Below are positions 7,465 to 24,070 of a DNA stretch of 42,797 bases, in pieces. The stretch spans positions 1-42,797 of the forward strand of contig JAICXL010000014.1 of NCBI GenBank assembly GCA_025980475.1, in the 5' to 3' direction. The notes under the pieces were generated by a model. It saw nothing but the letters and a program-made list of their open reading frames with translations, ran no database searches and was not told the DNA's origin. Source of the stretch: Nocardioidaceae bacterium. Lineage in GTDB: Bacteria > Actinomycetota > Actinomycetes > Propionibacteriales > Nocardioidaceae. Numbering within the stretch: the stretch's first letter is position 1; each line of letters opens with the position of its first letter. Both the position numbers and the translations under genes were made by a program.

Positions 7465-7549
7465 GTATCAAGAGAACCCCAGTTGATTTTCCGTCGCCGT
7501 CAAGTCGAGCCAAGACTGGGTGCGAACACGCTAGCCCGAGGTCGAAGGA

Positions 7550-7816: not shown

Positions 7817-7837
7817 AGCTCGGGATCGCCGGGCCCG

Positions 7838-8590: not shown

Positions 8591-9031
8591 GTGTTCATTC
8601 TGACCTAATCGGGCATGGTGGCAACATGGTATGTGGTCCCGGGAAACGTGAGGAGACCCCTCAGCGTTCATTCGGCGAGCTCGCGGTCGTGATGGTGGCC
8701 TCGCGCCGCCGCGGTCTCGACCCGCAGAACTGACGGCTGGGTCAATGCCTTGGACGCCGACTCAGGGATCTCCGGGGCGGGGCAGAGCCCGTGGGGGTGG
8801 GCTTTGCTTCGGCACCTGGACGAAGTCGGGCCGACGCGAGGGCCGGATGGCTGCCGGGTGGGCGTGTCCAAGAGCGCCATGCCTTGGTTCAGACACCTGT
8901 TCATCCACGCCGACACCCGAGCCGGCCATCTCCAGGGCTCTCTGGCAGAACGGCACCGCCATTTCCCCAAATGGCTACTTCGAAATAGCGGCATCTACCT
9001 ATTCACTTTCAGCGGGACGGATGCCTCTGTC
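8591..9031. other. Intergenic or decayed sequence, no supported gene
   Basis: Open frames exist on both strands, but none has a ribosome site, family motif or consistent codon bias. The stretch leads into a broken DyP-peroxidase fragment and is probably degenerate accessory DNA. Confidence 0.5.
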
Positions 9032-9459
9032 TGCTGGCCCCGGAGCGGCTTCCGCAACACCGCCGCCGCCACGGAGCACACCGGCCAGATACCGCGGAAT
9101 CTGATGGGCACCGCGACGGCACCAACAACCCCGACCTGGGCAGCCCGCTGCGGGAGTCCACCGTGTTGGTCCGCGACCCCGGCTCCTGGATGCACCGCGG
9201 CAGCTACCTGGTGGCCTGCCAGATCCAGGTCCGCCTCGAGAACTGGTTCGAGGATCCCGGGCACGCCTGGGATGCGGTCATCGGCCGTCGCACCAGTGAC
9301 GGCGTGCCGCTGGGAGAACGGGTCGAGCACGACCCGGTCGACCTCGACCTGCGCAAACCGGGCGGGGCGCCGTACATCAGTCCGCATGGGCCCACATCCG
9401 GCCCTGTTCCTCGCCTGGCAAGGCCGACATCCGCCGTGGCTTCGTCCCCAGTTCCGTGA
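9032..9459 (+). pseudogene. DyP-type peroxidase fragment, frameshifted
   Basis: Two adjacent frames carry consecutive DyP-peroxidase segments. The first (9032-9109) reads WPRSGFRNTAAAT followed by PRNLMG, the conserved lead-in to the GxxDG haem motif. The second (from 9106) continues GHRDGTNNPDLGSP, WMHRGSYLVACQIQVRLENW, AVIGRRTSDGVPLGE and HDPVDLDL, all typical of the family. The switch falls exactly at the motif and looks like a one-base deletion. The signal peptide and N-terminal half are missing, and the C-terminal part dissolves after about 9390, so the gene is dead. Intact DyP enzymes use peroxide and haem to oxidise dyes and lignin-like substrates. Confidence 0.75.
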
Positions 9460-9612: not shown

Positions 9613-9663
9613 TCAATCAGTGGATGGGGAGACGCTCGCCGGACGGATTTGGTGGGTGTGACG

Positions 9664-12600
9664 ATGTCCATCCACAAGCTCACCGCGGGGAGTGGGTATG
9701 ACTACCTGACTCGGCAGGTGGCGGCGATGGATGCCACCGACAAGGGCCACGCGGGACTCGCGTCGTACTACACCGAGAAGGGCGAGGCCCCGGGCCGGTG
9801 GGTGGGCTCGGGGATGGCCGGGCTCGACGGCCTGGCGGCCGGAGAGGTGGTTACGGCCGAGCAGATGCAGGCGCTGTTCGGCTCTGGGCACCACCCGCTC
9901 GCGACGGAACGGCAAGCCCAGGTGGTGGCCGAGGCCTCGGTCGAGATGCGTGCCGCGGTGACCGCGCCGGAGACCGGTGGGCGCCGGCCGCGGGGGCGGT
10001 CGCGGCAGACGGTTACGCAGCAGGAGCTGCAGCACCGGTTGCGAGACGCGGCTCGGTTGGGCCGCCCGTTCGCGGTCCACGAGGGCGGGGTGTCGGCCGT
10101 CCGCCGGGAGGTCGCGAAGCGCTTCGCCGCCTTCAACACCGTCGCCGGGCTCCCTGCCGACTGGCCTGTGCCCGCCGACGAACGGGCCCAGATCCGCACC
10201 CAGGTGGCGGTGGAGTTCTTCCGTGCCGAGCACGGTCGCGACCCTGCAGATACCCGCGAGATCGCCGCCACCATCGCCAAGCACTCCCGCCCGGGCCGCA
10301 CGGCGGTGGCCGGGTTCGACCTGACGTTCTCCCCGGTGAAGAGCTTCTCGGTGCTCTGGGCGTTGGCCGATCCGGCCACCGCCGCACGGCTGGAGCAGGC
10401 GCACCAGGCGGCCGTGTCCGAGGCGTTGGCGTTCCTCGAGGAGCGTGCGTTGTTCACCCGCACCGGGCGCGACGGTGTCCGGCAGGTCGAGGTGCGTGGC
10501 CTGGTCGCCGCGGCGTTCACTCACCGCGACTCCCGCGCCGGAGACCCCGACCTGCACACCCACGTGGCGGTGGCGAACAAGGTGCAAACGTTGGATGGGA
10601 GGTGGTTGGCGATCGATGCGCGGGTGTTGTTCAAGGCCAACGTGGCCGCCTCGGAGCTCTACAAAACCGCCTTGGAGGCCCACTGTGCGCAGCTGGGGCT
10701 GCGGTTCACCGAACACCCCAATGCCGATGCCCGCAAGCGGCCGGTGCGCGAGATCGTCGGCATCGACCAGGCTCTGCTGGAGCGGTTCTCCAAGCGGCGA
10801 GCCAGCATCAAGCACCGCCGCGAGGTCCTCGTGGTGCAATTCCAGGACACCCATGGCCGTCCGGCGACGGCGGTGGAGACGCTCAAGCTGGACCAGCAGG
10901 CCACCTTGGAGACCCGGCAGGCCAAGCACTCCCCGCGCAGCCTGGCCGACCAGCGTGCCGCCTGGCACAGCGAGGCCACCGGTGTGCTGGGTGGTGACCG
11001 GCGGCTGCGGCGGATGCTGCGCGTCGCCTTCCACCCAGCCGCGACGAAGCCGGAGCGGGTCGATTCCGCGTGGGTGGCGGCGGCCACCGACCGGGTGGTC
11101 TCTGCGGTGGAGTCCCGCCGGGCGACTTGGCAGGAATGGCATGTCCGCGCCGAGGCGCTGCGCCAGGTCCGCGGCCTCGGCCTGCCCGCGGCCGACCTGG
11201 ACCGGCTGGTGGACCTGCTCGTCGACCAGGTCCTCACCGACCGCTCGGTGCCCATCAGGCGACCGGCCGCGGACGCCATCGCCGAACCGCAGGTGCTGCG
11301 GCGCCGCGACGGCGCCTCCGTCTACACCATCGCCGGCGCCGGACTGTTCACCAGTAGCCGCATCCTGGAGGCCGAACGCGAGCTGGTCGCCGCCGCCGGC
11401 CGCACCGACGGCCACCGGGTGCCGCCTGCCTGTGTCGAGGCCGCGCTGCACGGCGCGGCGGCTGCCGGCGTGGGACTGAACCGGGGGCAGGCAGACTTGG
11501 TGCGGCAGATGGCCACCTCCGGTGCCCGGGTGCAGCTGGGGATCGCGCCGGCCGGATCGGGGAAGACCACCGCCATGCGCGCCCTCGCCGCTGCCTGGAC
11601 CGCCGGCGGCGGCACCGTGATCGGCCTCGCCCCCTCCGCAGCGGCCGCGGACCAGCTCGGCGCCAGCCTGCGCGGCAACCCCGGCACCGGTCAGGAGGCC
11701 GGTCCCGCGGCGGAGACGCTGGCGAAGCTGACCCACGCCCTGACGACCGGAAGGGCGACCGGGACGATGCCCGAGTGGGTCGCGGGGATCGGGCCGCGGA
11801 GCCTGGTGGTGATCGACGAGACCGGGATGGCCGACACCCTCTCCCTGGCCACCACCGTCGGTTACGTGACCGAGCGGGGCGGCAGCGTCCGGCTGATCGG
11901 CGACGACCAGCAGCTGGCCGCGATCGGCGCCGGCGGGGTGCTGCGAGACATCGCCACCACCCACGGCGCCCTGCGGCTGGCGGAGCTGGTCCGGTTCACC
12001 GACGCGGGCGAGGCAGCCGCCTCACTGGCCCTGCGCGATGGCAGACCCGAGGCGCTCGGGTTCTACCTGGACCACCAGCGGGTCCATGTCGGTGACCTGG
12101 CCACCCTGACCGAGCAGGCGTTCACCGCCTGGGCCACCGACCGCAAGGCCGGTGTCGATGCGCTCATGCTGGCTCCCACCCGGGACCTGGTCGCCGAGCT
12201 GAACCGACGCGCCCGCACCCACCGGCTCGACGCCCGCGACCCTGACCCCGGCCGCGGCCGCGGCCGTGGTGGGTTGGTTGGTCGGGAACGCGTGCTGGCC
12301 GACGGCAACACCGCCAGCGCCGGGGACCTGGTGATCACCCGCGCCAACGACCGGCGACTGCGCATTTCGGCCACGGACTGGGTCAAGAACGGCGACCGCT
12401 GGCTGGTCCGCCAGGTCCACGACGACGGCGCGCTGACCGTGCAGCACACCCGTGGCCGTCGTACGGTCCGGTTGCCCGCAGACTACGTGGACCGGGCGAC
12501 GGAGCTGGGGTATGCCACCACCATCCACACCGCCCAGGGCGTCACCGCCGAGGCCATGCACGGTCTGGTCACCGGACAGGAGACCCGCCAGCACCTCTAC

Positions 12601-14178
12601 ACCATGCTGACCCGCGGGAAGGCCGCCAACCACCTCTACCTCCAGGTCGTCGGCGACGGCGACCCGCACAGCCTGATCCGCCCCGAGACCACCCACCCGG
12701 CCACCGCCACCGAAGTGCTCGAACAGGTCCTGGCCCGCGACGACACCGCGACCTCGGCCACCAGCCTGACCCAGGCCCAGACCGACCTCGCCCCCCGGCT
12801 GGCCGACGCCACCGCGCGGTACCTCGACGCCCTCTACGTCGCCGCCGAAACCACCCTCGGCATCGACGCCGGGGCCAGTCTGGACGAGGGCGCCGAGCAG
12901 CTCATCGACGGCCTCACCGACGCACCCGCATGGCCGGCGCTGCGCGCGCACCTGCTGCTGGTCGCCGCGGCCGGCACCGAGCCCCTCGACGCGTTGGCGG
13001 CCACCGCGGGAGGCGAGTTGGACACCGCCCGGGACCCCGCCGCGGTGCTGGACTGGCGACTGGACGACACCGGCATGCGCGGCACCACCCCCGGCCCACT
13101 GCCCTGGCTCCCCGGCATCCCGACCGCCCTCGCCCACGACCCGCAATGGGGCCAGTACCTGGCCCAACGCAGCCAGCTCGTCTCCAGCCTCGCCGACCAG
13201 CTCCGCGACAACATCCGCACCGCCGCGGACACGACGGGCAGGTCGCCGACGTGGCTGACCCCCGGGACGACCCCGGGTATGACCGCCGACCCCGAGGTCG
13301 CTGCCGACATCGAGGTCTGGCGCGCCGCCATGGCCGTCGATCCCGAGGACACTAGGCCCACCGGCGCCCCGCAGCGGCAGAAGGCAGCCGCCAGGTGGCA
13401 ACACCACCTCAACACTAGCCTCACCAGCCACCGCACCCCGGCGCTGGACGAATGGGCACCGCTGCTGCAGGAACTCGTCCCGCAAACCGCGCAGGACGGC
13501 TTCACCCCCGTGCTGGCCGAACGACTGGCCCGGCTGAACCGCGCCGGGCTCCCAGCAGCACGCCTCGCCCGTCAGGTCGCGGCCGAGCGGCCCCTTCCCG
13601 ACGACCACGCCGCCGCCGCGCTGTGGTGGCGGATCACCTCCCGGTGCGACCCCCCGAGCGCCATCGACGAGCCAGGCGACCGGTCCCGTGTCGAGGACTG
13701 GCAGCTACGACTCACCGAGCTCCTCGGCGCCGACCGGGCCACCCGCCTGGAGACCAGCCCCGCCTGGCCAGCCCTGGTCTCGCTGGTCGACCAGGGCATC
13801 CAACGCGGCTGGCGGCTCGAGGACCTGCTCTCACCCGAAACGCAACACCACGGTCCGAACGGACCCGACGCGATGGACGAGGGCGAGGCGATCCTCTGGC
13901 GCACCGCCACCCTGCTGCACCCGCGGCCCACGGAGAACACCGACGACGAGCCACTGCCCGACGCCTATCCGGCAGTGCAGATCGCGGTCCCGGCGCCATC
14001 GGAACCGGTCATCCCCGACCCGTCTCCCGAGGCTGCTCGCGACGAGCCGCGCTGGGCGAAGAACTGGATCTCCGAGCCGGAAATCGTCGAACCAGCGACA
14101 CCGATAACCGCACGAAACGATGAGCCGCCGCTCCGCACACACCGCCCGGACCGTCTCGGTCCCGGCTTGAGTCGCTAA
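9664..14178 (+). CDS. MobF-family conjugative relaxase-helicase (TraA/TraI-like)
   Basis: About 1504 residues, starting at ATG 9664 seven bases after GGTGGG. The N-terminal TrwC-type relaxase has the candidate catalytic tyrosines in SGYDYLTRQVA (about residues 11-20), the FDLTFSPVKSFSVLWALADP strand, and the metal-binding histidines in THRDSRAGDPDLHTHVAVAN (about 286-305). A RecD/UvrD-like helicase follows: Walker A APAGSGKTT (about 628), Walker B LVVIDETGM (about 715), a GDDQQLAAIGAGG motif, and a late helicase motif IHTAQGVTAE (about 956). The long C-terminal tail is low in recognisable domains. Such proteins nick oriT, bind covalently to the strand and unwind it during transfer. The upstream AT-rich sequence may hold the oriT or promoter; no oriT hairpin was identified with confidence. 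Confidence 0.93.
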   Translation: MSIHKLTAGSGYDYLTRQVAAMDATDKGHAGLASYYTEKGEAPGRWVGSGMAGLDGLAAGEVVTAEQMQALFGSGHHPLATERQAQVVAEASVEMRAAVTAPETGGRRPRGRSRQTVTQQELQHRLRDAARLGRPFAVHEGGVSAVRREVAKRFAAFNTVAGLPADWPVPADERAQIRTQVAVEFFRAEHGRDPADTREIAATIAKHSRPGRTAVAGFDLTFSPVKSFSVLWALADPATAARLEQAHQAAVSEALAFLEERALFTRTGRDGVRQVEVRGLVAAAFTHRDSRAGDPDLHTHVAVANKVQTLDGRWLAIDARVLFKANVAASELYKTALEAHCAQLGLRFTEHPNADARKRPVREIVGIDQALLERFSKRRASIKHRREVLVVQFQDTHGRPATAVETLKLDQQATLETRQAKHSPRSLADQRAAWHSEATGVLGGDRRLRRMLRVAFHPAATKPERVDSAWVAAATDRVVSAVESRRATWQEWHVRAEALRQVRGLGLPAADLDRLVDLLVDQVLTDRSVPIRRPAADAIAEPQVLRRRDGASVYTIAGAGLFTSSRILEAERELVAAAGRTDGHRVPPACVEAALHGAAAAGVGLNRGQADLVRQMATSGARVQLGIAPAGSGKTTAMRALAAAWTAGGGTVIGLAPSAAAADQLGASLRGNPGTGQEAGPAAETLAKLTHALTTGRATGTMPEWVAGIGPRSLVVIDETGMADTLSLATTVGYVTERGGSVRLIGDDQQLAAIGAGGVLRDIATTHGALRLAELVRFTDAGEAAASLALRDGRPEALGFYLDHQRVHVGDLATLTEQAFTAWATDRKAGVDALMLAPTRDLVAELNRRARTHRLDARDPDPGRGRGRGGLVGRERVLADGNTASAGDLVITRANDRRLRISATDWVKNGDRWLVRQVHDDGALTVQHTRGRRTVRLPADYVDRATELGYATTIHTAQGVTAEAMHGLVTGQETRQHLYTMLTRGKAANHLYLQVVGDGDPHSLIRPETTHPATATEVLEQVLARDDTATSATSLTQAQTDLAPRLADATARYLDALYVAAETTLGIDAGASLDEGAEQLIDGLTDAPAWPALRAHLLLVAAAGTEPLDALAATAGGELDTARDPAAVLDWRLDDTGMRGTTPGPLPWLPGIPTALAHDPQWGQYLAQRSQLVSSLADQLRDNIRTAADTTGRSPTWLTPGTTPGMTADPEVAADIEVWRAAMAVDPEDTRPTGAPQRQKAAARWQHHLNTSLTSHRTPALDEWAPLLQELVPQTAQDGFTPVLAERLARLNRAGLPAARLARQVAAERPLPDDHAAAALWWRITSRCDPPSAIDEPGDRSRVEDWQLRLTELLGADRATRLETSPAWPALVSLVDQGIQRGWRLEDLLSPETQHHGPNGPDAMDEGEAILWRTATLLHPRPTENTDDEPLPDAYPAVQIAVPAPSEPVIPDPSPEAARDEPRWAKNWISEPEIVEPATPITARNDEPPLRTHRPDRLGPGLSR

Positions 14179-14284
14179 CGGGGTTGCGGACCTCGCCGAC
14201 GCATCAGGTGAGCGGCCAGAGCGCGTTCCCGCAGTTACGGAGCTGAGACCAACAACGGTCCCTCCCGATCCAAGGAGTTCACCC

Positions 14285-14524
14285 ATGTGCCACAAGTTCC
14301 GCACCGCACTCGCCGACGCCGACGGCTCGGCCGTCGACGAAGAGCTGCTCACCATCGCCGAAGCGACCGGCATCCTGCGCACCCCAATCGCCACCTGGCG
14401 CACCGCGGCGTTGTGGTGGAGATCGAGGAACAGCCCCCCACCTCGCGGGGCCAACAGCCACCGGCCGCCCTTGCAACCGCCAAGCGGCGCCGCCAGTCGG
14501 GACCACGGAGGGGGAGGGGAGTGA
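14285..14524 (+). CDS. Small HTH protein, possibly truncated
   Basis: A 79-codon frame from ATG with AAGGAG (14272-14277) seven bases upstream. Residues about 19-40 (EELLTIAEATGILRTPIATW) resemble the first helices of the HTH_17/excisionase DNA-binding fold. After that the sequence turns into Arg/Pro/Ser-rich residues that do not continue the domain, so the end may result from an old frameshift. It ends two bases before the next HTH gene, suggesting a two-gene regulatory pair; possibly an excisionase or control protein for the element. Confidence 0.55.
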   Translation: MCHKFRTALADADGSAVDEELLTIAEATGILRTPIATWRTAALWWRSRNSPPPRGANSHRPPLQPPSGAASRDHGGGGE

Positions 14525-14526
14525 TC

Positions 14527-14751
14527 ATGACAAAACCGGCCGGATCAGCCGCGGGAAACACGGTGTCGCCCCCGACATATCTGACCTTGGAGCAGGTGGC
14601 ACAGATCACCGAGCAGTCGGTCATGACGATCCGACGTCGGATCGCCGACGGCACGTTGCCGGCCTACCGCTTCGGGGGTCGCAACATCCGCATCAAGCTC
14701 GACGATCTCGAAGCCGCCGCCCGGCGCATCCCCAACGCCGGCACCGGGTAG
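14527..14751 (+). CDS. Excisionase-like helix-turn-helix protein
   Basis: 74 residues from ATG 14527, preceded by a very purine-rich ribosome site (GGAGGGGGAGGGGA, 14507-14520) with six bases between. The core (YLTLEQVAQITEQSVMTIRR, then DGTLPAYRFGGRNIRI and KLDDLEAA) is a typical MerR/HTH_17 excisionase domain. Family members assist the integrase during excision or repress transfer genes. It sits between relaxase and integrase, as in many actinobacterial elements. It is complete, unlike the HTH frame just before it. Confidence 0.85.
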   Translation: MTKPAGSAAGNTVSPPTYLTLEQVAQITEQSVMTIRRRIADGTLPAYRFGGRNIRIKLDDLEAAARRIPNAGTG

Positions 14752-14861
14752 GCCCACCGTTGAACCCCCGACCGCTCCACGGTCAGCACTACCATGAAAG
14801 AAGTCAGCGAACGCTGAACCGGCGCCGCGACCTGACAGAGTGGTGGAAGGAGGTGAGGGAG

Positions 14862-15182
14862 ATGGCCGACCATACAGGTCGGGTGCTGTACAAGGACATC
14901 GTTCCCTACGACACCCCCACCTCGCTCACCGCGCTCCGCGGACCTGCCACCGGCATCCTCGAGGTTCCGCTCACCGTGCACTGGGGACCGCGCCGCACGT
15001 TCGACCTCGATGACCCTCGCGACGTGCACGCCGCCTACCGTGCGATCGTGCGCGAAGGCACAACGGCGGTTCAAGAGCAACTGCTCAACGCCGACGTACT
15101 CCGTCGCCTCTGGCCCGAGCTGATGCTGCCGCCGCGATGCCGAAACATCTGGGAAGACCGCTTCCCCGAGCTCGCTGCTTGA
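14862..15182 (+). CDS. Hypothetical partner of the AbiEii-like protein (candidate antitoxin)
   Basis: 106 residues, starting at ATG 14862 because AGGAGG (14848-14853) lies eight bases upstream; the in-frame extension to 14760 lacks such a site. No known domain is recognised. The middle (ILEVPLTVHWGPRRTFDLDD) and the end (NADVLRRLWPELMLPPRCRN) look like a folded soluble protein. The next gene, an AbiEii-type nucleotidyltransferase, begins nine bases after this stop, so the two are almost certainly co-transcribed. The context suggests a toxin-antitoxin or abortive-infection pair with this as the regulatory partner. It does not show the winged-helix look of classic AbiEi, so the role is inference. 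Confidence 0.75.
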   Translation: MADHTGRVLYKDIVPYDTPTSLTALRGPATGILEVPLTVHWGPRRTFDLDDPRDVHAAYRAIVREGTTAVQEQLLNADVLRRLWPELMLPPRCRNIWEDRFPELAA

Positions 15183-15191
15183 TCACCAGCG

Positions 15192-16022
15192 ATGGCTGAC
15201 CACCTCCGCGACACCTCCGGAAGCGTTGCGTTCCAGCGGCACGTCACCACGGTCCTGCTCGACCACATCTCAACGGCGGGGTTCGCTCTCGCAGGCTCCG
15301 GGGCGATCCGCGAGCACGGAATCACACAACGACCGACCAACGACATCGACCTCTTCACAACTGCTGCCACCGGCCCCGAAGCGTTCACGACGGCAGTCGA
15401 AGTGGGGGAGCGGACCTTGCGCGACAAAGGTTACAAGGTGAGTCGGACCCGCTCGACGCCCGAGTTCGCGCGGCTCCTCGTCGAGGCCACCGGTGAGACA
15501 GAGATCAACGACGTTGTGACGGGGATGGCCGTCGAAGTCGACCTGGGCATCGACTGGCGCCGCGAGCCACCGGCGCAGCTTTCCATCGGACCGGTGCTCG
15601 GGCTACGCGACGCCGTTGGTAGCAAGGTCGCCGCCGTCTACTCCCGAGGAGAGGCACGCGACTTCCTCGACGTCGACGCGATCCGCGAGTCGAGACGGTT
15701 CACCGACCCAGAGCTACTCACCCTGGCCAAGGAACATGACCCCGGCTTCGAGGTGGAGACGTTCGTGCAGCAACTGCGTCGCGTGCGCCAGCTCGACCCA
15801 GTCGAGACCACCGAGTACGGCACCGACGGCGAACGCCTCGACCAGATCAAGCTCCGCCTCGGCACGTGGGCGGTCGAACTCCTTGAGTCGCTGCGGCCGC
15901 CGCTGGCACCCCCCGCATCTCGACCGCCGACATCGAGCCCGGCCGACCAGCGGCCGCCGTCCCCGGGCAACGTCGGGCCAGGGTGCACCCGAGACGCCGA
16001 CCCGCGAGGACCGAGCCTGTAG
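15192..16022 (+). CDS. AbiEii/AbiGii-type nucleotidyltransferase (candidate toxin)
   Basis: 276 residues. The nucleotidyltransferase signature FALAGSGAIREHG, then RPTNDIDLF, is present (about residues 31-55), giving the Gly-Ser and DxD metal-binding elements. Downstream, AVYSRGEARDFLDVDAI (about 148-164) matches the conserved Lys/Arg-Asp block of AbiEii proteins. AbiEii family proteins are the toxic halves of type IV toxin-antitoxin phage-defence systems and transfer nucleotides to RNA targets; activity here is inferred. The last 45 residues are Pro/Ser-rich and probably disordered. No strong ribosome site precedes the ATG, consistent with translational coupling to the partner gene nine bases upstream. 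Confidence 0.87.
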   Translation: MADHLRDTSGSVAFQRHVTTVLLDHISTAGFALAGSGAIREHGITQRPTNDIDLFTTAATGPEAFTTAVEVGERTLRDKGYKVSRTRSTPEFARLLVEATGETEINDVVTGMAVEVDLGIDWRREPPAQLSIGPVLGLRDAVGSKVAAVYSRGEARDFLDVDAIRESRRFTDPELLTLAKEHDPGFEVETFVQQLRRVRQLDPVETTEYGTDGERLDQIKLRLGTWAVELLESLRPPLAPPASRPPTSSPADQRPPSPGNVGPGCTRDADPRGPSL

Positions 16023-16091
16023 CCGCATGGGCATCGCGCGCCATTGGTCCGCTTGCGGGAGAGTGCTCGGCTCTTGACTGGTTGTTGAGCA

Positions 16092-16115
16092 TGCACAGGC
16101 CCGCTGGCGTGTGCA
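16092..16115. repeat. Inverted repeat TGCACA/TGTGCA beside the integrase 3' end
   Basis: TGCACA (16092-16097) and TGTGCA (16110-16115) are exact inverted arms around a 12-base loop, in the gap between the converging AbiEii-like and integrase genes. It may act as a weak terminator for either gene. The GTGCA core also occurs in the repeats on the other side of the integrase gene, so a recombinase or excisionase site is an alternative. Confidence 0.35.
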
Positions 16116-16119
16116 CCGG

Positions 16120-17259
16120 TTACGACACTCCGCGCGTCTCACCCTCCGCCATCGTCGACAGCGCTTCGGCGATCTGCGAATGCCGGTCGCTCACGCTGGA
16201 CTGGTAGATCATCGCGGCCTGGGCGGTCGAGTGCCCGCCGCGCTGCTGCAGCTCGCCCACGGTGGCGCCGGTCCGTGCGGCCATCACCAGACCGAAATGA
16301 CGCAGGTCGTGCACACGGACGTCTGGGCGGCCGGCCTGGTTCTTCGCCGGTCCGAACACTCGGTGCAGCGTCGACAGTGCGAGGTAGTCCTTGCCGTTGG
16401 CCGCGGGGAACACCAGTCCGTCCTTGCCGAACGCCGCGTGCTCGGTCAGGTGCTCGCGTAGCGCCGGAAGGAGGTGCGGCGGGATGGTGACCGTCCGGCG
16501 ACCGGCGTCGGACTTCGGCGGGCCGACGAACTTCTGGCCCTTGAGGGTCACCACGGAGTGCCGGACGTGCACGACGCCGGCCTTGAGGTCGAGGTCGGAG
16601 CGGCGCAGCGCGGCCAGCTCGCCGAACCTCAGCGAGCACCAGGCGCCGAGCAGCACCAACGCCTTGTATCGGGCCGGGATGGCCAACACCAGGGCGTTCA
16701 GCTCCGCGACGGTGAGCACCCGTAGCTCCCGCTCCCGCTTCTTCGTCCCGGCACCCTTGATCCGCACCGGGTTGACCGGCACGGCGCCGTCGTCGGCGGC
16801 CTCGCCCATGATCGTGCGCAGCAGCCCGTAGGCGTTTGCGCGGCCGGTCTGGCCGGTGTCGAGGTCGGCATACCAGGACTTCACCAGCGTCGGGGTGATC
16901 GCGGTCAGCGGCAGCCCGGCGAACGTCGGGGCGATGTGCCGGCGCATGATGCCCTCGTACAGCGCGGCGGTCCTGGGCTTGATCTGCCCCGACCTCGAGC
17001 GCATCTGCAGCCACGCCGCGGCGTACTGCCCGAACGTATCCGGCTGGGCCGCCGGCTCGGGCTTGTTGCGCGAGTGCGGGGGAGTCCACGTGCCGGCGTC
17101 GACCAGGCGGCGCTCGTCGACCAGCCACCCTTCGGCGTCCATCTTCGTCTCGAACGTGCCCGCGGCCTTGTGCACCGCGAGGTCAGGGCCGGTGTAGCTG
17201 GCCTGCCAGCGCCCGCTCGGGAGCTTGCGGAGTCGGCCCCAGCCGCGTCTGCTGCCCAT
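16120..17259 (-). CDS. int: Tyrosine-type site-specific integrase
   Basis: About 379 residues from ATG 17259 (GGGTGG five bases upstream); a TTG 11 codons earlier is possible. Order: an AP2-like arm-binding N-terminus (GRLRKLPSGRWQASYTG), a SAM-like core-binding domain (FGQYAAAWLQMRSRSG to about residue 150), then the catalytic domain. Catalytic residues are visible: Arg in CSLRFGELAALR, Lys near GPPKSDAGRR, HDLRHFG, GGHSTAQA and the nucleophile Tyr in AMIYQSS. The architecture is full length for actinobacterial phage/ICE integrases, so it is probably functional. The family cuts and rejoins att sites, often at tRNA 3' ends; the gene reads into the element with its start close to the right boundary. 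Confidence 0.94.
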   Translation of the reverse strand: MGSRRGWGRLRKLPSGRWQASYTGPDLAVHKAAGTFETKMDAEGWLVDERRLVDAGTWTPPHSRNKPEPAAQPDTFGQYAAAWLQMRSRSGQIKPRTAALYEGIMRRHIAPTFAGLPLTAITPTLVKSWYADLDTGQTGRANAYGLLRTIMGEAADDGAVPVNPVRIKGAGTKKRERELRVLTVAELNALVLAIPARYKALVLLGAWCSLRFGELAALRRSDLDLKAGVVHVRHSVVTLKGQKFVGPPKSDAGRRTVTIPPHLLPALREHLTEHAAFGKDGLVFPAANGKDYLALSTLHRVFGPAKNQAGRPDVRVHDLRHFGLVMAARTGATVGELQQRGGHSTAQAAMIYQSSVSDRHSQIAEALSTMAEGETRGVS

Positions 17260-17273
17260 CGATGCCACCCATC

Positions 17274-17304
17274 TTGCACGCGCCGCGTGCAACTACGTGC
17301 AACT
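17274..17304. repeat. Inverted and direct repeats upstream of the integrase
   Basis: TTGCACG (17274-17280) and CGTGCAA (17286-17292) form an exact 7-base inverted repeat around a 5-base centre. The right arm is followed by a direct copy: GCGTGCAACT (17285-17294) and ACGTGCAACT (17295-17304), a 10-base period. The position immediately upstream of int suggests binding sites for integrase, excisionase or an int repressor. Confidence 0.55.
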
Positions 17305-17387
17305 TCAAGGCGTATTAGTGTATTTCAAAGTTCCCTGATGCGCCTATACTGCAGCGTAAACCGAGAATTCACCCGACAGTGAGAGAT

Positions 17388-17471: not shown

Positions 17472-19901
17472 ATGGTCTCGCTGACACCGGTCGCCGCCCC
17501 GGTCGAGCGCCGCGCCATCGTCGACGACGACGTGGTGGTCCGGGCGACAGGGCTCACCGCCGGGTACGGCGGCACCCCGACGCTGCACGGCGTCGACCTC
17601 GAGGTCCGCCGTGGCGAGCTGGTCGGCATCGCCGGGGAGAACGGCGCCGGCAAGTCGACGCTGCTGCGCTGCCTGGCCGGAGACCTGCAGCTCGACGAGG
17701 GCGTCGTGGAGCTGGCGCCGGGGACTCGTGCCGAGCTCGCCTGGCAGCACGCCGCCCTGTGCGACAACCTGGACATCGCCGAGAACCTGCTGCTCGGCCG
17801 GGAGCACCCGTGGCGCCCGCTCTCGACCGCCCGGACGCACCTGCGCACGTGCAGGCTGCTGGCCGAGCTCGAGCTGGGCACCGAGCTGCGCCCGACCACC
17901 GACCTGGTCGGCCAGCTCTCCGAGGCACGCCGGCAGCTGCTGGCCATCGCCCGCTCCGTCGTGATCGGCCCGGGCCTGCTGCTGCTCGACGAGCCCACCG
18001 CCACCCTCGGCGTCGCCGACACGGCCCGCGTCGAGGCGTTGGTCGGCAGGCTGCGCGACCGGGGCACGACCGTGCTGATGGTCTCCCACGACATCGAGCA
18101 GCTCTTCCGGGTCGCCGGGCGCATCGTGGTGCTGCGCAAGGGCCGGGTGGTGGGCGAGGTGGACCCGGTCAGCGGCCACCCCGACGACGTCGCTGCCCTG
18201 GCGTCCGGGCACGAGATGGACTCCTCCGCGCACCACCAGCTGAGCCGGCTGCACGCGCTCTCCGACCGGCTCGCGTCGGCCGATCCCTCGTCGAGCCCGC
18301 TGCTGATCCTCAGCGCGCTCGGCACCGCGCTGGGCGCCGAGCAGCTGGCCATGCACGTCGCCACGCCCGAGGGCGGGCTGCGGCTCCTCTGCGCCCTCGG
18401 GATCCCGGACGACCTGCGCGACGCGTGGGAGCTGGTGCCCGGCGGAGTGGGGGGAGGACCGATGGGGCTGGCCAGCGCGCACGCCGAGCCTGTGGTGGAT
18501 CCTGACGTCCGCGTCGGCACGGCGTGGCGCCCCTTCCGGGAGCGGCTCTGGCAGCTGCGCATCGCCAGCTCCTGGGCGGTGCCCTTCCACGGCTCCGAAG
18601 GACTGGGCGGGGTGATCACCGTCTTCCGGGACCGGATCGGCAGCCCCACCCGCAGCGAGCTGGACTTGGCGATGCTCTACGGCGGTTATGCGGCCAACGC
18701 CCTGGAGCGCGACCGGCTGGTCGGCGAGCTGACCTCCCGCAACCTGGTGCTCGAGACCATCCGCGAGGTGTTGGAGACGCTCACGGCTCCGCTGCCGATC
18801 GCGGCTGCGCTCGATGCAGCCCTCGGCACCCTCGTCCAAGGGGTGCAGGCTGACGCAGCGGCCGTCTTCACCCGGGAGCACGGCGAGGCCCGGGCCCGGT
18901 GCCTGGCGCTGGTGGGTGCGGGCGGGACGGTCATGTCCGAGGACGAGCTGCTGGCGATGGTGCGCGAGCACGCTCGCGAGGCCGACGGCACCATGACGCG
19001 CTTCCCGGTCGGGACCGGCGGCTGGGGTCGCGCCGTCGGGATGCCCGGTGTGCACGGGATGGACTGGTTGGTCGTCGTCCGCCGGGACGGGCAGGTCACG
19101 GCGGAGACCGGGGCGCTGGTGGAAGACACCGCGCACTCGGTACGGCTGGCCCTCGAGCGCGATCGAGCCCAGCGGGCCGCCCAGGAGACCGGCGCCCTGC
19201 GCCGCTCCCGGGAGCTGCAGCGGGGGTTCCTCGCGCGCCTGTCCCACGAGCTGCGGACCCCGCTGACGGCGATCGGCGGCTACGCCGACACGCTGCTCCA
19301 GCGCGACGTGGTCTGGGACGCCGCGTCGCAGGAGCGCTTCCTGACCCGGATCGCAGACGAGTCCCGCCGTCTCGGCAGGCTGGTCGACGACCTGCTCGAC
19401 CACTCCGCCATCGAGTCGGGGGTGATGCGCCTCCAGCGGGACTGGTGCGACCTGGCCCTTGTCGCCGACGCCGCCCGGGCCTGCGTGTCCGAGGAGGCCC
19501 GGGAGCGCATCCAGGTGGACGTGCCGCGGGACCTGCCACCGATCTGGGCCGACCACGACCGCCTCGAGCAGGTGTTCGTGAACCTCTTCGACAACGCCGT
19601 CAGGCACAACCCGTCACGGACCCGGGTGCGTGTGGGGCTCCGGCCGGCCAACCCCCCTTGCGTGCGGTTCGAGGTCTGCGACGACGGGGTCGGCAAGCCT
19701 GCGGACCTGGCCGGCGCGGGGCGGCGGGGGCGGCACAGCCGGACGGCCGGCGCGGGGCTCGGGCTGTCGATCGCGCGGGCGATCGTCACTGCGCACGGCG
19801 GCCGGATCGCGGTGGAGGACGCGGACCCGGGGATACGGTTCGTGGTCGACCTCCCGGCCGAGCCCGATGACACCGAGCAGACAGTTGAGCAGGATGGCTG
19901 A
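17472..19901 (+). CDS. ABC ATPase-GAF-GAF-histidine kinase fusion protein
   Basis: About 809 residues from ATG 17472 (the frame opens earlier, inside the putative att region). Residues about 15-235 are a sugar-type ABC nucleotide-binding domain: Walker A GENGAGKST (about 55-63), Q-loop AWQHAALCDNLDI, Walker B LLLLDEPTA (about 170) and H-loop VSHD. The signature loop reads LSEARRQ instead of LSGGQ. Two GAF-like regions follow (about 276-406 and 443-556), then HisKA with H-box SHELRTPLTAI (phospho-acceptor about His592), N-box NLFDNAVRHN and ATP-lid GAGLGLSIARA. No membrane segment is seen, so the kinase is cytoplasmic. It overlaps the response-regulator gene by eight bases and precedes a CUT2 transporter whose ATPase shares the ALCDNLDI motif. 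Inference: the NBD docks on the transporter and reports its state to the kinase. The kinase and NBD assignments are firm; the mechanism is hypothetical. Confidence 0.93.
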   Translation: MVSLTPVAAPVERRAIVDDDVVVRATGLTAGYGGTPTLHGVDLEVRRGELVGIAGENGAGKSTLLRCLAGDLQLDEGVVELAPGTRAELAWQHAALCDNLDIAENLLLGREHPWRPLSTARTHLRTCRLLAELELGTELRPTTDLVGQLSEARRQLLAIARSVVIGPGLLLLDEPTATLGVADTARVEALVGRLRDRGTTVLMVSHDIEQLFRVAGRIVVLRKGRVVGEVDPVSGHPDDVAALASGHEMDSSAHHQLSRLHALSDRLASADPSSSPLLILSALGTALGAEQLAMHVATPEGGLRLLCALGIPDDLRDAWELVPGGVGGGPMGLASAHAEPVVDPDVRVGTAWRPFRERLWQLRIASSWAVPFHGSEGLGGVITVFRDRIGSPTRSELDLAMLYGGYAANALERDRLVGELTSRNLVLETIREVLETLTAPLPIAAALDAALGTLVQGVQADAAAVFTREHGEARARCLALVGAGGTVMSEDELLAMVREHAREADGTMTRFPVGTGGWGRAVGMPGVHGMDWLVVVRRDGQVTAETGALVEDTAHSVRLALERDRAQRAAQETGALRRSRELQRGFLARLSHELRTPLTAIGGYADTLLQRDVVWDAASQERFLTRIADESRRLGRLVDDLLDHSAIESGVMRLQRDWCDLALVADAARACVSEEARERIQVDVPRDLPPIWADHDRLEQVFVNLFDNAVRHNPSRTRVRVGLRPANPPCVRFEVCDDGVGKPADLAGAGRRGRHSRTAGAGLGLSIARAIVTAHGGRIAVEDADPGIRFVVDLPAEPDDTEQTVEQDG

Positions 19902-20601
19902 GCAGGGGATCCGCACCAAGGTGTTGATGGTCGAGGACGACCCCAACATCGTCGACCTGATCCGCTCCAACCTCAACGTGCGCGGCTTCGACACGGTCGC
20001 CTCCACCGACGGGCTCCATGCGCTGCGCCTGCTCGAGGTCGAGCAGCCTGACATCGTGCTGCTCGACCTGATGCTGCCCGACGCCGACGGGATGGACCTG
20101 TGCAGGCAGATCCGGGAGCGGTCCACGGTCGGGATCATCGTCGTCTCCGCCCGCGGGGGCGAACGCGACAAGGTGACCGCCCTCAACATGGGCGCCGACG
20201 ACTACCTGACCAAGCCGTTCGGGATCGAGGAGCTGCTCGCCCGGATCAGCGCCACGCTGCGGCGCACCCGCGCCGCGGCCCCGGCCCGGGAGACGACCAG
20301 CGTGATCAGGGTCGGTGGCATCGAGGTCGACCTGAGCGACCAGCGGGTGACCCGGGACGGCGTGCCGGTCCACCTGACCCCGACCGAGTTCGCGCTGTTG
20401 CGCGAGCTGGCCACCAACCCGGGCAGGCTGGTCACGCACGCCCAGCTGCTCCGCCGGGTGTGGGGGCCCGGGTACGAGACCGAGACCGAGTACGTCCGCG
20501 TCTACGTTCGCCGGCTGCGCGCCAAGCTCGAGGCCGACGACAGCGAGCCGTTGATCCTCACCCAGCCGCGCGCCGGCTACCGGCTGGCGTCCGCCGACTG
20601 A
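19894..20601 (+). CDS. OmpR/PhoB-family response regulator
   Basis: 235 residues from ATG 19894, overlapping the kinase stop by eight bases, so translation is probably coupled. The receiver domain (about 8-120) has the acidic pocket VEDD and the phospho-acceptor Asp58 in VLLDLMLPDADG, plus YLTKPF. The winged-helix domain (about 140-233) carries HLTPTEFALLRELATNPGRL and VYVRRLRAKLE, the usual recognition-helix region. It should bind tandem DNA direct repeats. The four GTTCA words starting two bases after its stop, in front of the binding-protein gene, are the natural target. Cognate partner: the ABC-kinase fusion. Confidence 0.95.
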   Translation: MAEQGIRTKVLMVEDDPNIVDLIRSNLNVRGFDTVASTDGLHALRLLEVEQPDIVLLDLMLPDADGMDLCRQIRERSTVGIIVVSARGGERDKVTALNMGADDYLTKPFGIEELLARISATLRRTRAAAPARETTSVIRVGGIEVDLSDQRVTRDGVPVHLTPTEFALLRELATNPGRLVTHAQLLRRVWGPGYETETEYVRVYVRRLRAKLEADDSEPLILTQPRAGYRLASAD

Positions 20602-20602
20602 C

Positions 20603-20649
20603 GTTCACGGTTTGTTCATGTCTGCGGCGAAACGTTCACGGGGCGTTCA
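20603..20649 (+). promoter_or_regulatory. Four GTTCA repeats in two 11-bp-spaced pairs (response-regulator or Pho-box-like site)
   Basis: GTTCA occurs at 20603, 20614, 20634 and 20645. Within each pair the spacing is exactly 11 bases, and the pairs are 20 bases apart, so all lie roughly on one helix face. Eleven-base direct repeats are how OmpR/PhoB-type dimers bind. GTTCAC repeats also match the actinobacterial PHO-box pattern, so PhoP is a rival candidate. The site lies about 105 bases upstream of the binding-protein start. Confidence 0.65.
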
Positions 20650-20754
20650 CGCAAACATCACTAGCCTCAGGAACACCGCGGGGCCGAAGCCGGTCGGGCG
20701 GGGCGGCCGTGCCACACGGTCGGCAACACCTCTGATGCAAAGGGATGATGCAAC

Positions 20755-21993
20755 GTGCGTGCACTCCGCAACGGTTCGCTGGTCGCGGCTCTCTCCGCGA
20801 CGGCCCTCCTCGTGGCCGCATGCGGGAGCGGTGGCTCCGGCAACGCAGGAGCCAAGTCAACGACCGGCTCGTCGAACACCCCGTCGGCCAGCTCCTCCAG
20901 CGGTAGCAGCAGCCCGAACCTCTCGGCGACTTCGTTCACCAACGACTTCTCGGCGATGGCCCAGCTGAAGTCGGTCGCAGCCCAGGGCAAGGGCAAGATC
21001 GCGGTGATCCTGCCGGACACGACCACGTCGGCGCGCTACACCGAGTTCGACGCGCCGTACCTCAAGCAGGCGTTCGCGAAGGCCGGGGTGTCATCGTCGA
21101 ACGTGATCATCCAGAACGCCCAGGGCAGTGACAACACCCAGCTGACCGACGCGCAGTCCGACATCACCAACGGCGCTGCCGTGCTGATCGTCGACCCGCT
21201 CGACGCCGGGGTCGGTGCCCAGATCGAGAAGTACGCCGCCGCGCACGGCGCCGCCTCGATCGACTACGACCGGCTGACCCTCGGTGGCACCCGCGACTAC
21301 TACGTGAGCTTCAACAACGTGGAGGTCGGCAAGTTGATCGGCAACGGCATGGTCTCCTGCGTGCAGCAGTGGGGAGTGAAGAAGCCCAACATGATCGTGA
21401 TGAAGGGCGACCCGACCGACAACAACGCAACGCTCTTCGCCCAGGGCTACATGAGCGTGCTGAACCCGAAGTTCTCCTCCGGCTGGACCAAGGCGGCCGA
21501 GCCGGCCGGCACCTGGGACCCGCCGACGGCGAAGACCGAGTTCCAGCAGGCGTTCACCGCCCACAAGGGCGTCAACTCGGTGCTGGTGCCGAACGACGAG
21601 AACGCCGCGCCGATCATCTCCTACCTGAAGACACTCAACGTCAAGCCGCAGAGCTTCCCGGTCACCGGCCAGGACGCCACGCTCGTGGGCCTGCAGAACA
21701 TCCTGTCCGGCTACCAGTGCGGCACGGCCTACAAGCCGATCTACCTCGAGGCGCAGGCGGCCGCGGCGCTGGCGGTCTACCTCAACGCGGGGCAGACGCC
21801 GCCGACCAGCCTGGTCAACGGCACCACGCAGGACACCAAGGCCCACAAGGCCGTGAAGTCGGTTCTGCTGAAGCCCGAGTGGGTGACCCCGAAGAACATG
21901 GAGAGCACCGTGATCGCGGACAAGTTCGTGCCGGCAGCGCAGCTGTGCAAGGGCAACTACGCGAAGGACTGCTCGAAGTACGGGATCAAGTGA
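20755..21993 (+). CDS. Lipoprotein substrate-binding protein of a xylose/ribose-type ABC transporter
   Basis: 412 residues from GTG 20755, with AAAGGGA nine bases upstream. A lipoprotein signal ends in LVAAC (Cys23), followed by a Ser/Gly-rich tether to about residue 60. The rest is a type-1 periplasmic-binding fold: KIAVILPDTTTSARY, AVLIVDPLDAG, a VPNDENAAPI region, and VTGQDA with a YKPIYLEAQAAA segment, which is closest to XylF-like proteins. The substrate cannot be read from sequence; co-located ligase and oxidoreductase genes leave room for something other than a pentose. It is the first gene of the transporter operon, behind the GTTCA repeats. Confidence 0.93.
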   Translation: MRALRNGSLVAALSATALLVAACGSGGSGNAGAKSTTGSSNTPSASSSSGSSSPNLSATSFTNDFSAMAQLKSVAAQGKGKIAVILPDTTTSARYTEFDAPYLKQAFAKAGVSSSNVIIQNAQGSDNTQLTDAQSDITNGAAVLIVDPLDAGVGAQIEKYAAAHGAASIDYDRLTLGGTRDYYVSFNNVEVGKLIGNGMVSCVQQWGVKKPNMIVMKGDPTDNNATLFAQGYMSVLNPKFSSGWTKAAEPAGTWDPPTAKTEFQQAFTAHKGVNSVLVPNDENAAPIISYLKTLNVKPQSFPVTGQDATLVGLQNILSGYQCGTAYKPIYLEAQAAAALAVYLNAGQTPPTSLVNGTTQDTKAHKAVKSVLLKPEWVTPKNMESTVIADKFVPAAQLCKGNYAKDCSKYGIK

Positions 21994-22775
21994 CCGAAGC
22001 CATGACTGACGACGCCCCGCTGCTCAGGCTGCGGGGCGTCGTCAAGAACTTCGGCCCGGTGCAGGCGCTCCGGGGGGTCGACCTCGACCTCCCGAACGGG
22101 CAGGTCACCGCCCTCGTCGGTGACAACGGTGCCGGCAAGTCGACGCTGATCAAGACCATCTCGGGCATCTGGGGACCCGACGGCGGCGAGATGGCATGGC
22201 TGGGGCAACCCGTCCAGTTCCACTCGCCCAAGGACGCCGCCCGGCAGGGGATCGCGACCGTCTACCAGGACCTCGCGCTCTGCGACAACCTCGACATCGT
22301 GCAGAACATGTTCCTCGGCCGGGAGCTCCTCCAGCGTCGGATGCTCGACGAGTCCGCAATGGAGAAGCGTGCCGCCGCCACCCTCAGCGACCTCTCGGTG
22401 ACCACGGTGAAGTCGATCCGCCAGCCGGTGGGCTCGCTCTCCGGTGGCCAGCGCCAGGCGGTCGCGGTGGCCCGGGCGGTGATGGAGGACGCGCGGCTGG
22501 TGATCCTCGACGAGCCGACGGCGGCCCTCGGCGTCTCGCAGACGGCGATGGTGCTCGACCTCGTGCGTACGCTTCGGGAAGGCGGCATCGCGGTGCTGCT
22601 GATCTCGCACAACCTCAACGACGTCTTCTCGGTCGCCGACCGGGTCGCGGTGATGCACCTGGGCCGGATCGCCCACAGCGGTCCGCTCTCGGAGCTGGAC
22701 ACCCAGGGAGTCGTCGAGCTGATCACCACGGGACAGACATCCGCAGCCCCGGCGGCAGGAAGGCCCCCCCGATGA
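21990..22775 (+). CDS. Single-NBD ABC transporter ATPase (CUT2/sugar type)
   Basis: About 261 residues from GTG 21990, which overlaps the binding-protein stop (GTGA); ATG 22002 is an alternative. Canonical motifs: Walker A GDNGAGKST, Q-loop VYQDLALCDNLDI, signature SLSGGQRQ, Walker B LVILDEPTA and H-loop LISHN. Classic RbsA/XylG ATPases have two such domains in about 500 residues; this one has one. It may homodimerise, or pair with the NBD of the kinase fusion, which has a degenerate signature and the same CDNLDI stretch. It energises uptake through the permease encoded next, with which it overlaps by four bases (ATGA). Confidence 0.95.
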   Translation: MTEAMTDDAPLLRLRGVVKNFGPVQALRGVDLDLPNGQVTALVGDNGAGKSTLIKTISGIWGPDGGEMAWLGQPVQFHSPKDAARQGIATVYQDLALCDNLDIVQNMFLGRELLQRRMLDESAMEKRAAATLSDLSVTTVKSIRQPVGSLSGGQRQAVAVARAVMEDARLVILDEPTAALGVSQTAMVLDLVRTLREGGIAVLLISHNLNDVFSVADRVAVMHLGRIAHSGPLSELDTQGVVELITTGQTSAAPAAGRPPR

Positions 22776-24070
22776 CATCCGCCCCCGGCACCGCCCAGCC
22801 CGAGACCGACGCCGAGACCGACGTCCGCGAGATCGACGTCGCCGAGGCCGGTGTCCTCGCCGAGTCGTTCGGCGACTACGTCCGCGCGTGGCTGAAGCGG
22901 GTGCGTGGCGGTGAGAGCGGCATCCTGCCGGTGCTCGTCGGGCTCGTCGTCATCATCATCATCTTCCAGATCGAGAAGTCGGTCTTCCTGTCTGCAGGAA
23001 ACCTCGTCCTCCTGCTTCAGCAGGGCGCCAGCCTCGTGCTGTTCGGCATGGCCGAGGTGTTCGTTCTGCTGCTCGGGGAGATCGACCTCTCTGCCGGCTT
23101 CGTCGGGGTCATCGGCGGTTTCTTCGCCGTCTGGCTGTCGTCCCAGAAGGGCTGGCCGTGGGGTCCGTCGATTCTCGTGGGCCTGCTGGTTCCGGCGGCG
23201 ATCGGCGCAGCCATGGGGGTATTCGTGGTCCGGCTGCGACTGCCTTCGTTCGTGGTCACGCTGGCCGGACTGCTTGGTTTCCAGGGTGTCCTGCTGTGGC
23301 TCGTGAACACCCTGGGTGGCAAGTCCAGCGGGGGCGTCATCTCGATCGACAACCCGGTCATCGGTGGTCTCGTCGGCAGCAACATGCCGGTCCTCGCCGG
23401 CTGGCTGGTGATGGCGGTGGTGGTCGCCGCATTTGCCGGCCTGCTGGTGTTCGGAGACCGCAGCCGTAGGCGTGCCGGACTCGCGACGCCGCCCTTCGGG
23501 CTGACCATCGCCAAGATCGCCGCCGTCGCGGTCGGCGGGATCATCCTGCTGGTGGTCTGCAACGCCAACCGGGGCCTGCTGACCCCGTTGCGTGGCGTGC
23601 CGTGGGTGGTGCCGGTGGTGATCGCGATCGTGATCGCCTGGACGGTGCTGCTCACCAGGACACGATTCGGGCGTTACGTCTACGCGATCGGCGGCAACGC
23701 GGAGGCTGCCCGCAGGGCCGGCATCAATCTCGGCCGGATGCGGATCGCCTGCTTCGCGCTGTGCAGCATGACGGCGGGCGCTGCCGGCATCGTGTACGCC
23801 TCGAACCTGGGCTCGATCTCCAGCAACGTCAACGGCGGCCAGCTGGTGCTCTACGCTGTCGCCGCGGCCGTCATCGGCGGCACCAGCCTCTTCGGCGGCC
23901 ACGGCAAGATGGTGCATGCGCTGCTCGGCGGGCTGGTGATCGCGACGATCAACAACGGCATGGGCCTGGTCGGCCTGAGCGCCCCCACTCAGTACATCGT
24001 CACCGCGCTGGTGCTGCTCGCGGCGGTCACCGTCGACTCCCTGGCCCGACGCGGACAGGTTGCTGCCTGA
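22772..24070 (+). CDS. CUT2-family ABC transporter permease (XylH/RbsC-like)
   Basis: 432 residues, overlapping the ATPase gene by four bases. An acidic N-terminal region of about 50 residues precedes roughly ten hydrophobic segments, starting at VLVGLVVIIIIFQIE. Family landmarks are GEIDLSAGFVGVIGG, the VRLRLPSFVVTLAG segment, and the cytoplasmic RTRFGRYVYAIGGNAEAARR loop typical of XylH/RbsC permeases that contacts the ATPase. It forms the membrane channel for the substrate delivered by the lipoprotein. The operon seems to pause here: 73 bases separate it from the ligase gene, with a new -10-like element. Confidence 0.95.
   Translation: MTSAPGTAQPETDAETDVREIDVAEAGVLAESFGDYVRAWLKRVRGGESGILPVLVGLVVIIIIFQIEKSVFLSAGNLVLLLQQGASLVLFGMAEVFVLLLGEIDLSAGFVGVIGGFFAVWLSSQKGWPWGPSILVGLLVPAAIGAAMGVFVVRLRLPSFVVTLAGLLGFQGVLLWLVNTLGGKSSGGVISIDNPVIGGLVGSNMPVLAGWLVMAVVVAAFAGLLVFGDRSRRRAGLATPPFGLTIAKIAAVAVGGIILLVVCNANRGLLTPLRGVPWVVPVVIAIVIAWTVLLTRTRFGRYVYAIGGNAEAARRAGINLGRMRIACFALCSMTAGAAGIVYASNLGSISSNVNGGQLVLYAVAAAVIGGTSLFGGHGKMVHALLGGLVIATINNGMGLVGLSAPTQYIVTALVLLAAVTVDSLARRGQVAA

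Follow-up and report, generated by a model that had tools for sequence, protein, structure and literature searches.

We examined a 42,797-nucleotide stretch of the genome of a Nocardioidaceae bacterium (assembly GCA_025980475.1, contig JAICXL010000014.1, positions 1 to 42,797; hereafter "the window"), in which one gene codes for a histidine kinase that begins with the nucleotide-binding domain (NBD) of an ATP-binding cassette (ABC) transporter. This gene heads a set of five genes, all in the same direction, that also encode a response regulator and the parts of a sugar importer, namely a substrate-binding protein (SBP), a separate NBD and a permease:

17472-19901, plus strand: ABC-GAF-GAF-HisKA-HATPase histidine kinase of 809 amino acids (open reading frame, Pfam, AlphaFold model)
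17535-18206, plus strand: ABC nucleotide-binding domain of the kinase, residues 22-245 (Pfam, motif reading)
18330-19082, plus strand: two GAF domains of the kinase (first by Pfam, residues 287-412; second by the model alone, residues ~443-537)
19218-19862, plus strand: HisKA (residues 583-650) and HATPase_c (residues 694-797) of the kinase (Pfam)
19894-20601, plus strand: OmpR/PhoB-type response regulator (Response_reg and Trans_reg_C profiles)
20603-20651, plus strand: two pairs of 11-bp-phased direct repeats, GTTCAYG-N4-GTTCAYG, presumed response-regulator box
20755-21993, plus strand: XylF/ChvE-like sugar-binding lipoprotein, Peripla_BP_4 (profiles)
22002-22775, plus strand: separate single-domain XylG-like NBD with intact LSGGQ (profiles, motif reading)
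22772-24070, plus strand: GguB-like permease, BPD_transp_2 (profiles)

An initial annotation had read the kinase as one uninterrupted frame running from a sugar-type NBD, through two GAF-like regions, to the kinase domains, with no membrane segment, and this description held up. The frame is open from an ATG at 17472 to the stop at 19901 (an earlier GTG start at 17379 is possible), and 38 further kinases share its build. Pfam recognizes ABC_tran (residues 38-177, E 4.8e-21, 76.2 bits against a cut-off of 25), HisKA (E 2.4e-17) and HATPase_c (E 1.3e-18), and the kinase alignment contains the phospho-histidine box, presumably with H592 as the phosphorylated residue in the window kinase, together with what we take to be the N, G1 and G2 boxes, as in a HisKA histidine kinase. 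The NBD is of the sugar type, its top ABC profile being YtfR at 133.8 bits, which is far under that family's cut-off of 850. Walker A (GENGAGKST), the Q-loop (WQH), Walker B (LLLLDEP) and the H-loop (SHD) are all in place; the ABC signature, which the earlier reading did not mention, is degenerate (LSEAR, not LSGGQ). The first GAF region gave a single GAF_2 match of 28.1 bits, slightly below the cut-off of 28.6, and the second was delimited solely from the secondary structure of the AlphaFold model; in alignment A1, GAF_2 was matched in 17/17 members and GAF in 16/17 (E up to 0.01). Hydropathy revealed no membrane segment in the window kinase, the highest Kyte-Doolittle 19-residue mean being 1.58.

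The AlphaFold model of the whole kinase has a pLDDT of 78.9 and a pTM of 0.39, and because of the latter we do not draw on the arrangement of its domains. Within the model, the NBD spans residues ~20-230, alpha-beta domains occupy both GAF positions, and an unbroken helix (544-609) enters the HisKA domain. Foldseek returned NBD folds such as FtsE and LptB for this model, and a profile search of solved structures retrieved 650 sequences, of which the best 60 were all ABC proteins.

The genes of the operon are tightly packed, with the response-regulator start overlapping the kinase stop by 8 bases and the reading frames of the separate NBD and the permease overlapping as well. The Peripla_BP_4 binding protein, the sugar NBD and the BPD_transp_2 permease, in which we counted 11 hydrophobic segments and found the cytoplasmic coupling motif GGNAEAARRAGI, together identify a CUT2 sugar importer. 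Its profiles are nearest to XylFGH/GguAB/ChvE, all listed scores being below the equivalog cut-offs, and its ligand is probably a monosaccharide. The kinase half is closest to PnpS/PhoR and the response regulator to MtrA/PhoB by profile.

The kinase family and its ATPase domain

At least 39 distinct kinases, including that of the window, carry an NBD and a kinase in one frame. A search with the linker and GAF region (residues 247-576) against 393 genomes of the class found matches in 16 other genomes at E below 1e-30. A profile built from residues 225-600, reaching from the tail of the NBD into the beginning of HisKA and leaving out the ABC core, retrieved at least 38 loci from named genome contigs, at least 21 of them in the family; two of these, a truncated kinase without an ABC part (L073) and a locus on the same contig as L052 (L072), were excluded from the 39, and the remaining 17 loci match around HisKA only and are kinases without ABC. 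The same profile added three members from a phylum sample of 396, in which three weaker matches had no ABC in frame. Members were selected by a strong kinase-half match plus an ABC match, so that the shared frame is partly an outcome of selection; still, none of the fetched loci held a strong, untruncated kinase-half match without ABC. The initial annotation had named NBD and kinase lying consistently in separate genes as an observation that would count against it, and no such pattern was seen: the 39 members carry the fusion, and the 24 weaker matches checked for ABC in frame (L057, L038-L040, L079-L095, L100-L102) all lack it and are other histidine kinases or have no kinase match. Among the named hosts are Humibacter sp. 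RRB41, Jiangella ureilytica, Streptomyces spongiae and Conexibacter sp. DBS9H8 (a complete genome), and further members come from actinobacterial metagenome-assembled genomes labelled Streptosporangiaceae, Acidimicrobiales and Solirubrobacterales.

A whole-protein search of 97 relatives of the window genome, from genus to order, gave no full-length copy among the matches listed, and the top match outside the own genome reached 138 bits and covered residues 25-247 (self-match, 1771 bits). In a tblastn search of plasmids, none of the 5000 best records matched 80% of the query in a single place, and the two stretches of viral contigs that matched a pattern do not encode a relative.

The kinase NBDs form a group of their own. 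A tree built from 78 ABC domains (those of 39 kinases, 31 transporter NBDs and 8 further ABC rows; one partial row omitted) sets all 39 kinase NBDs apart from the other 39 rows by a 100/99 branch. They also differ at the Q-loop, where the Gln is preceded by W in 38/39 kinase NBDs and by Y or F in all 32 transporter NBD rows.

Catalytic motifs are widely kept in the family. The Walker A Lys and the Walker B Asp-Glu are retained in 39/39 kinases, the H-loop His in 36 (lost in L075, L076 and L078) and an LSxG[QE] signature in 34, the exceptions being the window (LSEAR), L067 (LTAAE), L078 (LNLGE), L071 (LAGGE) and L105 (FSGGQ). Four kinases with an eroded NBD and a readable operon (the window, L067, L075 and L078) have a separate NBD with intact motifs beside them; the L076 locus ends before the position of such a gene. 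Motif decay thus occurs in these four of the 20 operons with a separate NBD and in none of the 13 without one, a contrast that is suggestive only, as it comprises few independent events. A mixed pair of kinase NBD and separate NBD would hold one complete and one incomplete ATP site, an arrangement known from asymmetric ABC proteins.

The linker between NBD and HisKA is 274-380 residues long in most members and shrinks to 11 in L078, 21 in L077 and 123 in L075 and L076, with the NBD retained in all four. Since L077 lies with the GAF-bearing L064, apart from the clade of L075, L076 and L078, the GAF domains were lost or reduced at least twice, the NBD staying in place. The NBD, not the GAF domains, is the constant input domain. 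In the GAF-less Conexibacter kinase, of 486 residues, the model (pLDDT 83.7) joins the NBD to the kinase by a single helix (232-277).

Transporter operons beside the kinases

The usual gene order in the family is kinase, response regulator, SBP, NBD and permease. The initial annotation had proposed checking whether fusion homologues adjoin a CUT2-type operon, and transporter genes indeed adjoin the kinase in 33/33 loci with enough sequence (six loci were too short), 20 of them with a separate NBD and 13 without. In the latter (L044-L055 and L104) the SBP and permease genes are adjacent, the permease keeps its coupling helix, and Walker A, LSRG(Q/E), DEP and the H-loop His are all retained in the kinase. 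The kinase NBD is thus the sole operon-encoded ATPase for 13 permeases. No second transporter was found within the 15-19 kb fetched at L044, L055 and L104. Two operons depart from the usual layout in other ways: in L074 the NBD gene is split over two frames (11406-12255), which is either an assembly error or a decayed gene, and L071 has a two-domain RbsA-like NBD, with the SBP gene after the permease.

The Q-loop and the following helix, which we take to be the place where an NBD meets its permease, are well conserved between each kinase and the NBD of its own operon. Across 17 pairs, identity in this contact window is 63.5%, as compared to 38.3% over the whole domain, and the best four of 202 windows (62.6-67.6%) all overlap it; the signature (61.2%) and Walker A (60.3%) trail by a few per cent only. 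In a control of just two comparisons, of the window's NBD with two other NBDs, Walker A came first (70%) and the contact window 45th of 200. Wherever that part of the permease was read, the coupling motif is present. In the 12 Jiangella-type operons the permease motif GSNAS(G/A)ARRAGI and the kinase motif GLC(D/E)DLD diverge jointly from the GG(N/S)/ALCDNLD forms, which the second, complete transporter retains where present; L104 has similar changes, and the joint shift represents at most two events.

A distance-based co-evolution test over 30 of the 33 operons (L047, L071 and L074 omitted) gave a partial rho of 0.18 between ABC domain and permease given the kinase half, reached in 0/200 permutations, and of 0.43 between kinase half and permease given the ABC domain.

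Among the genes scanned no consistent catabolic neighbour hinted at the ligand. PfkB lies beside L056, and ROK genes lie in L046 and L054. Downstream of the transporter, L058 (16318-18458), L059 (17297-18682) and L070 (17052-17738) carry genes of riboflavin biosynthesis (Lum_binding, DHBP_synthase/GTP_cyclohydro2, RibD_C), which are either a hint at the ligand or chance synteny. In L075, after the operon of the GAF-poor ABC kinase, positions 6289-9129 encode another Peripla_BP_4 protein as well as a GAF-GAF-HisKA_3 kinase.

In the window, the genes immediately preceding the kinase operon (9649-17292) encode a TrwC-type relaxase, an AbiEii-like nucleotidyltransferase and a tyrosine integrase, and the operon, which did not appear among the matches listed for the 97 relatives, may border a mobile element; no obvious attachment repeat was found among direct repeats of at least 20 bases (20 of 21 families). 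Elsewhere in the window, positions 32186-33484 encode a fusion of an RNase H-like domain with a histidine phosphatase, of a kind that is usual in actinobacteria, and positions 772-7464 a 2230-residue protein with RHS repeat matches. Scans of the window for tRNAs and Rfam families gave no matches.

Repeats upstream of the transport genes

The gap between the response-regulator and SBP genes of the window holds the two repeat pairs, at 20603-20620 and 20634-20651. The pattern GTTCAYGN4GTTCAYG has two exact matches in the 2.76-Mb genome, both before the SBP gene, and the matches of the looser GTTNAYGN4GTTNAYG are likewise confined to this gap; the reversed control gave none for either pattern. 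The pattern was derived from such gaps, and therefore only its absence from the rest of the genome counts as independent evidence, not its presence here. Box scores of 10-12 out of 12 were obtained for all 16 main-group gaps, a level that 0 to 3.7% of 300 crude shuffles of each gap reached, and L105, L106 and L071 score 10-11.

A related element, TAAACAAGATGTAAAC, stands before the SBP gene of the complete transporter in 10/10 Jiangella-type loci that have one nearby, with one-base variants in L050 and L054. Its pattern GTTTAYN5GTTTAYG matches once per genome in seven whole genomes, each time before that SBP gene, with no match of the reversed control. In genome G302, where the second transporter is on another contig, the looser GTTNAYN5GTTNAYG has five matches, one of them again between the ROK and SBP genes there. 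No element precedes the complete transporters of G293 (two matches in the genome) and G715 (three), the site in G154 and G137 misses the last base of the pattern, and the reversed control of the looser pattern matched once in four of six genomes. The element is also absent from five sister transporters of genomes lacking the kinase, whose ROK proteins are only 33-42% identical. Since the Jiangella element is reversed and lies beside a ROK gene, it may be a ROK operator. A box-like element (GTTCAYKKGATGTTAATG) was seen in similar surroundings at L126 (G302) and L127 (G293); transporter, kinase and ROK queries had no match in these 3-kb loci.

The kinase as a possible importer subunit

We consider it probable that these proteins are transporter-mounted kinases, which would dock on the importer in the role of an ATPase-like subunit, reporting its ATP and transport cycle to the response regulator. 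The kinase NBD would sit on the cytoplasmic coupling loops of its own operon's permease, either beside the separate NBD or, where there is none, as the only operon-encoded NBD. A sugar-loaded binding protein would alter the permease, and the NBD pair, by opening and closing and by its ATP occupancy, would then shift the helix that connects the NBD to the HisKA dimer, by way of the GAF domains or, in GAF-less members, directly, thereby setting autophosphorylation. The response regulator may in turn bind the paired, 11-bp-phased repeats before the transport genes and adjust their expression, and the importer thus probably serves as a sugar sensor besides being an entry gate. We infer the docking, the direction of the response, the ligand and the binding of the repeats by the regulator; for docking, the pointers are the reduction or loss of GAF domains with the NBD kept, the conserved contact segment, and the NBD-less operons in which the kinase NBD has intact catalytic motifs.

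The suggestion of the initial annotation that the sensor mimics or replaces a transporter subunit is favoured, as far as a subunit role goes, by the conservation of the operon, by the contact segment and above all by the 13 NBD-less operons. Replacement does not apply to the window itself, where the kinase at most shares the transporter with the separate NBD, because that NBD is intact and the kinase signature is degenerate. In Jiangella-type operons the SBP, the permease and the NBD-kinase might form one complex in which the kinase is both motor and signal output, with the regulator switching the second, complete importer; in such a complex ATP turnover during sugar binding would directly gate histidine phosphorylation. 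We put forward this combined arrangement tentatively, as falling somewhat short of an even chance.

Several observations weigh against the proposed docking and circuit. The degenerate signatures of the window, L067 and L078 and the lost H-loop His of L075, L076 and L078 mean that hydrolysis by the kinase NBD is no general need. A complete SBP-NBD-permease set lies near 10 of the 13 NBD-less operons (L045-L054); among their stronger NBD matches, genomes G293, G302 and G715 encode four XylG-like NBDs elsewhere, each with its own SBP and permease, and a fifth (L111) has a permease and no SBP match, so that NBDs from elsewhere in such genomes could be shared. The lead of the contact segment is narrow, and the distance test carries no docking-specific signal, its pattern being the one that joint inheritance would give. 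As for the regulator box, another spacing scores equally well or better in 6 of the 16 main-group gaps (L058, L060, L062, L064, L065 and L068), so that the 11-bp phase is not evident in every gap; the box is not significant at L056 and is absent from the response regulator-SBP junction in 6/6 NBD-less operons tested.

Some of these points suit an NBD that has become a free-standing ATP/ADP or dimerisation switch, making the protein a soluble energy-charge sensor that no longer touches the permease. In its favour are the missing membrane segment, the lack of docking-specific co-evolution and the universal Walker A Lys, which, set against the less complete H-loop His and signature, would fit nucleotide binding without a transport cycle; GAF domains, too, often bind small ligands. 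Such a sensor would have no need, however, for a permease-contact segment that is the best conserved part or for transporter genes in every readable locus, and it leaves unexplained the 13 operons with SBP and permease and no NBD; we find it unlikely. Less credible by far is an ordinary sugar transporter next to which a kinase happens to lie, its fused NBD being a relic: many main-group kinase NBDs do sit on longer end branches than transporter NBDs (judged by eye), and the window copy has its degenerate signature, but the fusion, the gene order and the contact segment were kept in several actinobacterial groups and through the loss of the GAF domains. A frameshift or misassembly joining two genes, named at the outset as a possible objection, was looked for and not seen; the fusion is in all 39 members, and the identical join in 38 other kinases, including those of Conexibacter sp. 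DBS9H8, Humibacter sp. RRB41 and Jiangella ureilytica, rules this explanation out for practical purposes.

A further possibility is a special case of the docked kinase, in which the NBD-less set of SBP, permease and kinase is a pure, non-transporting receptor whose regulator controls a different, complete transporter. The 10/10 placement of TAAACAAGATGTAAAC and its uniqueness in seven genomes speak for it, as do the G302 match between ROK and SBP and the five sister transporters without the element. The reversed element beside a ROK repressor gene, perhaps that repressor's operator, the elementless complete transporters of G293 and G715, the imperfect sites of G154 and G137 and the reversed-control matches in 4/6 genomes speak against it, and the kinase NBD retains the motifs for hydrolysis that one would expect of a working importer. 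On balance this pure receptor seems to us rather doubtful, slightly more so than the motor-and-output complex.

PhoR is not known to carry an NBD. The transporter-mounted kinase would resemble known systems in which a kinase follows a transporter. In the Bce module (BceAB-BceRS) of Bacillus subtilis a kinase reads the conformational and ATP cycle of an ABC transporter, whose genes are under the control of the regulator; BceS lies in the membrane and touches BceB through transmembrane helices, with BceA as a separate ATPase, whereas here a soluble kinase has its own NBD and goes with a sugar importer and a binding protein (PMC10314905). The window system may thus work like a Bce module without being a member, as its kinase has no transmembrane segment and its permease is BPD_transp_2/GguB-like, not BceB-type. 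PhoR-PhoU-PstSCAB likewise relays the status of an ABC importer to a histidine kinase, but acts via PhoU, and no PhoU-like gene is among the five operon genes here (PMC6978683). In XylFII-LytS and CuaD-CuaS an ABC-type sugar-binding protein feeds a two-component system by pairing with a membrane kinase at its extracellular part (PMC10384115); the kinase here has neither a membrane nor an extracellular part. S-component/5TMR transceptors relate a part of an ABC-type transporter to kinase input, the shared part being a substrate-binding membrane fold and not, as here, the ATPase (PMC11109136). The XylG, GguA and YtfR NBDs belong to the same sequence family as the kinase NBD and the operon NBD, and differ from the kinase NBDs, which have W before the Q-loop Gln and run on into a kinase. 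We found no description of such an NBD-kinase fusion among the papers listed in searches of the openly licensed PMC literature.

BceS, PhoR and similar kinases depend on contacts among several proteins to sense transport, and such contacts are difficult to investigate. With the transporter ATPase built into the kinase, control of the kinase by the importer's ATP cycle becomes testable on purified protein with point substitutions, and GAF-less members such as the 486-residue Conexibacter protein offer a minimal version. If the proposed docking is true, these kinases represent a new way of building a sensor from an importer.
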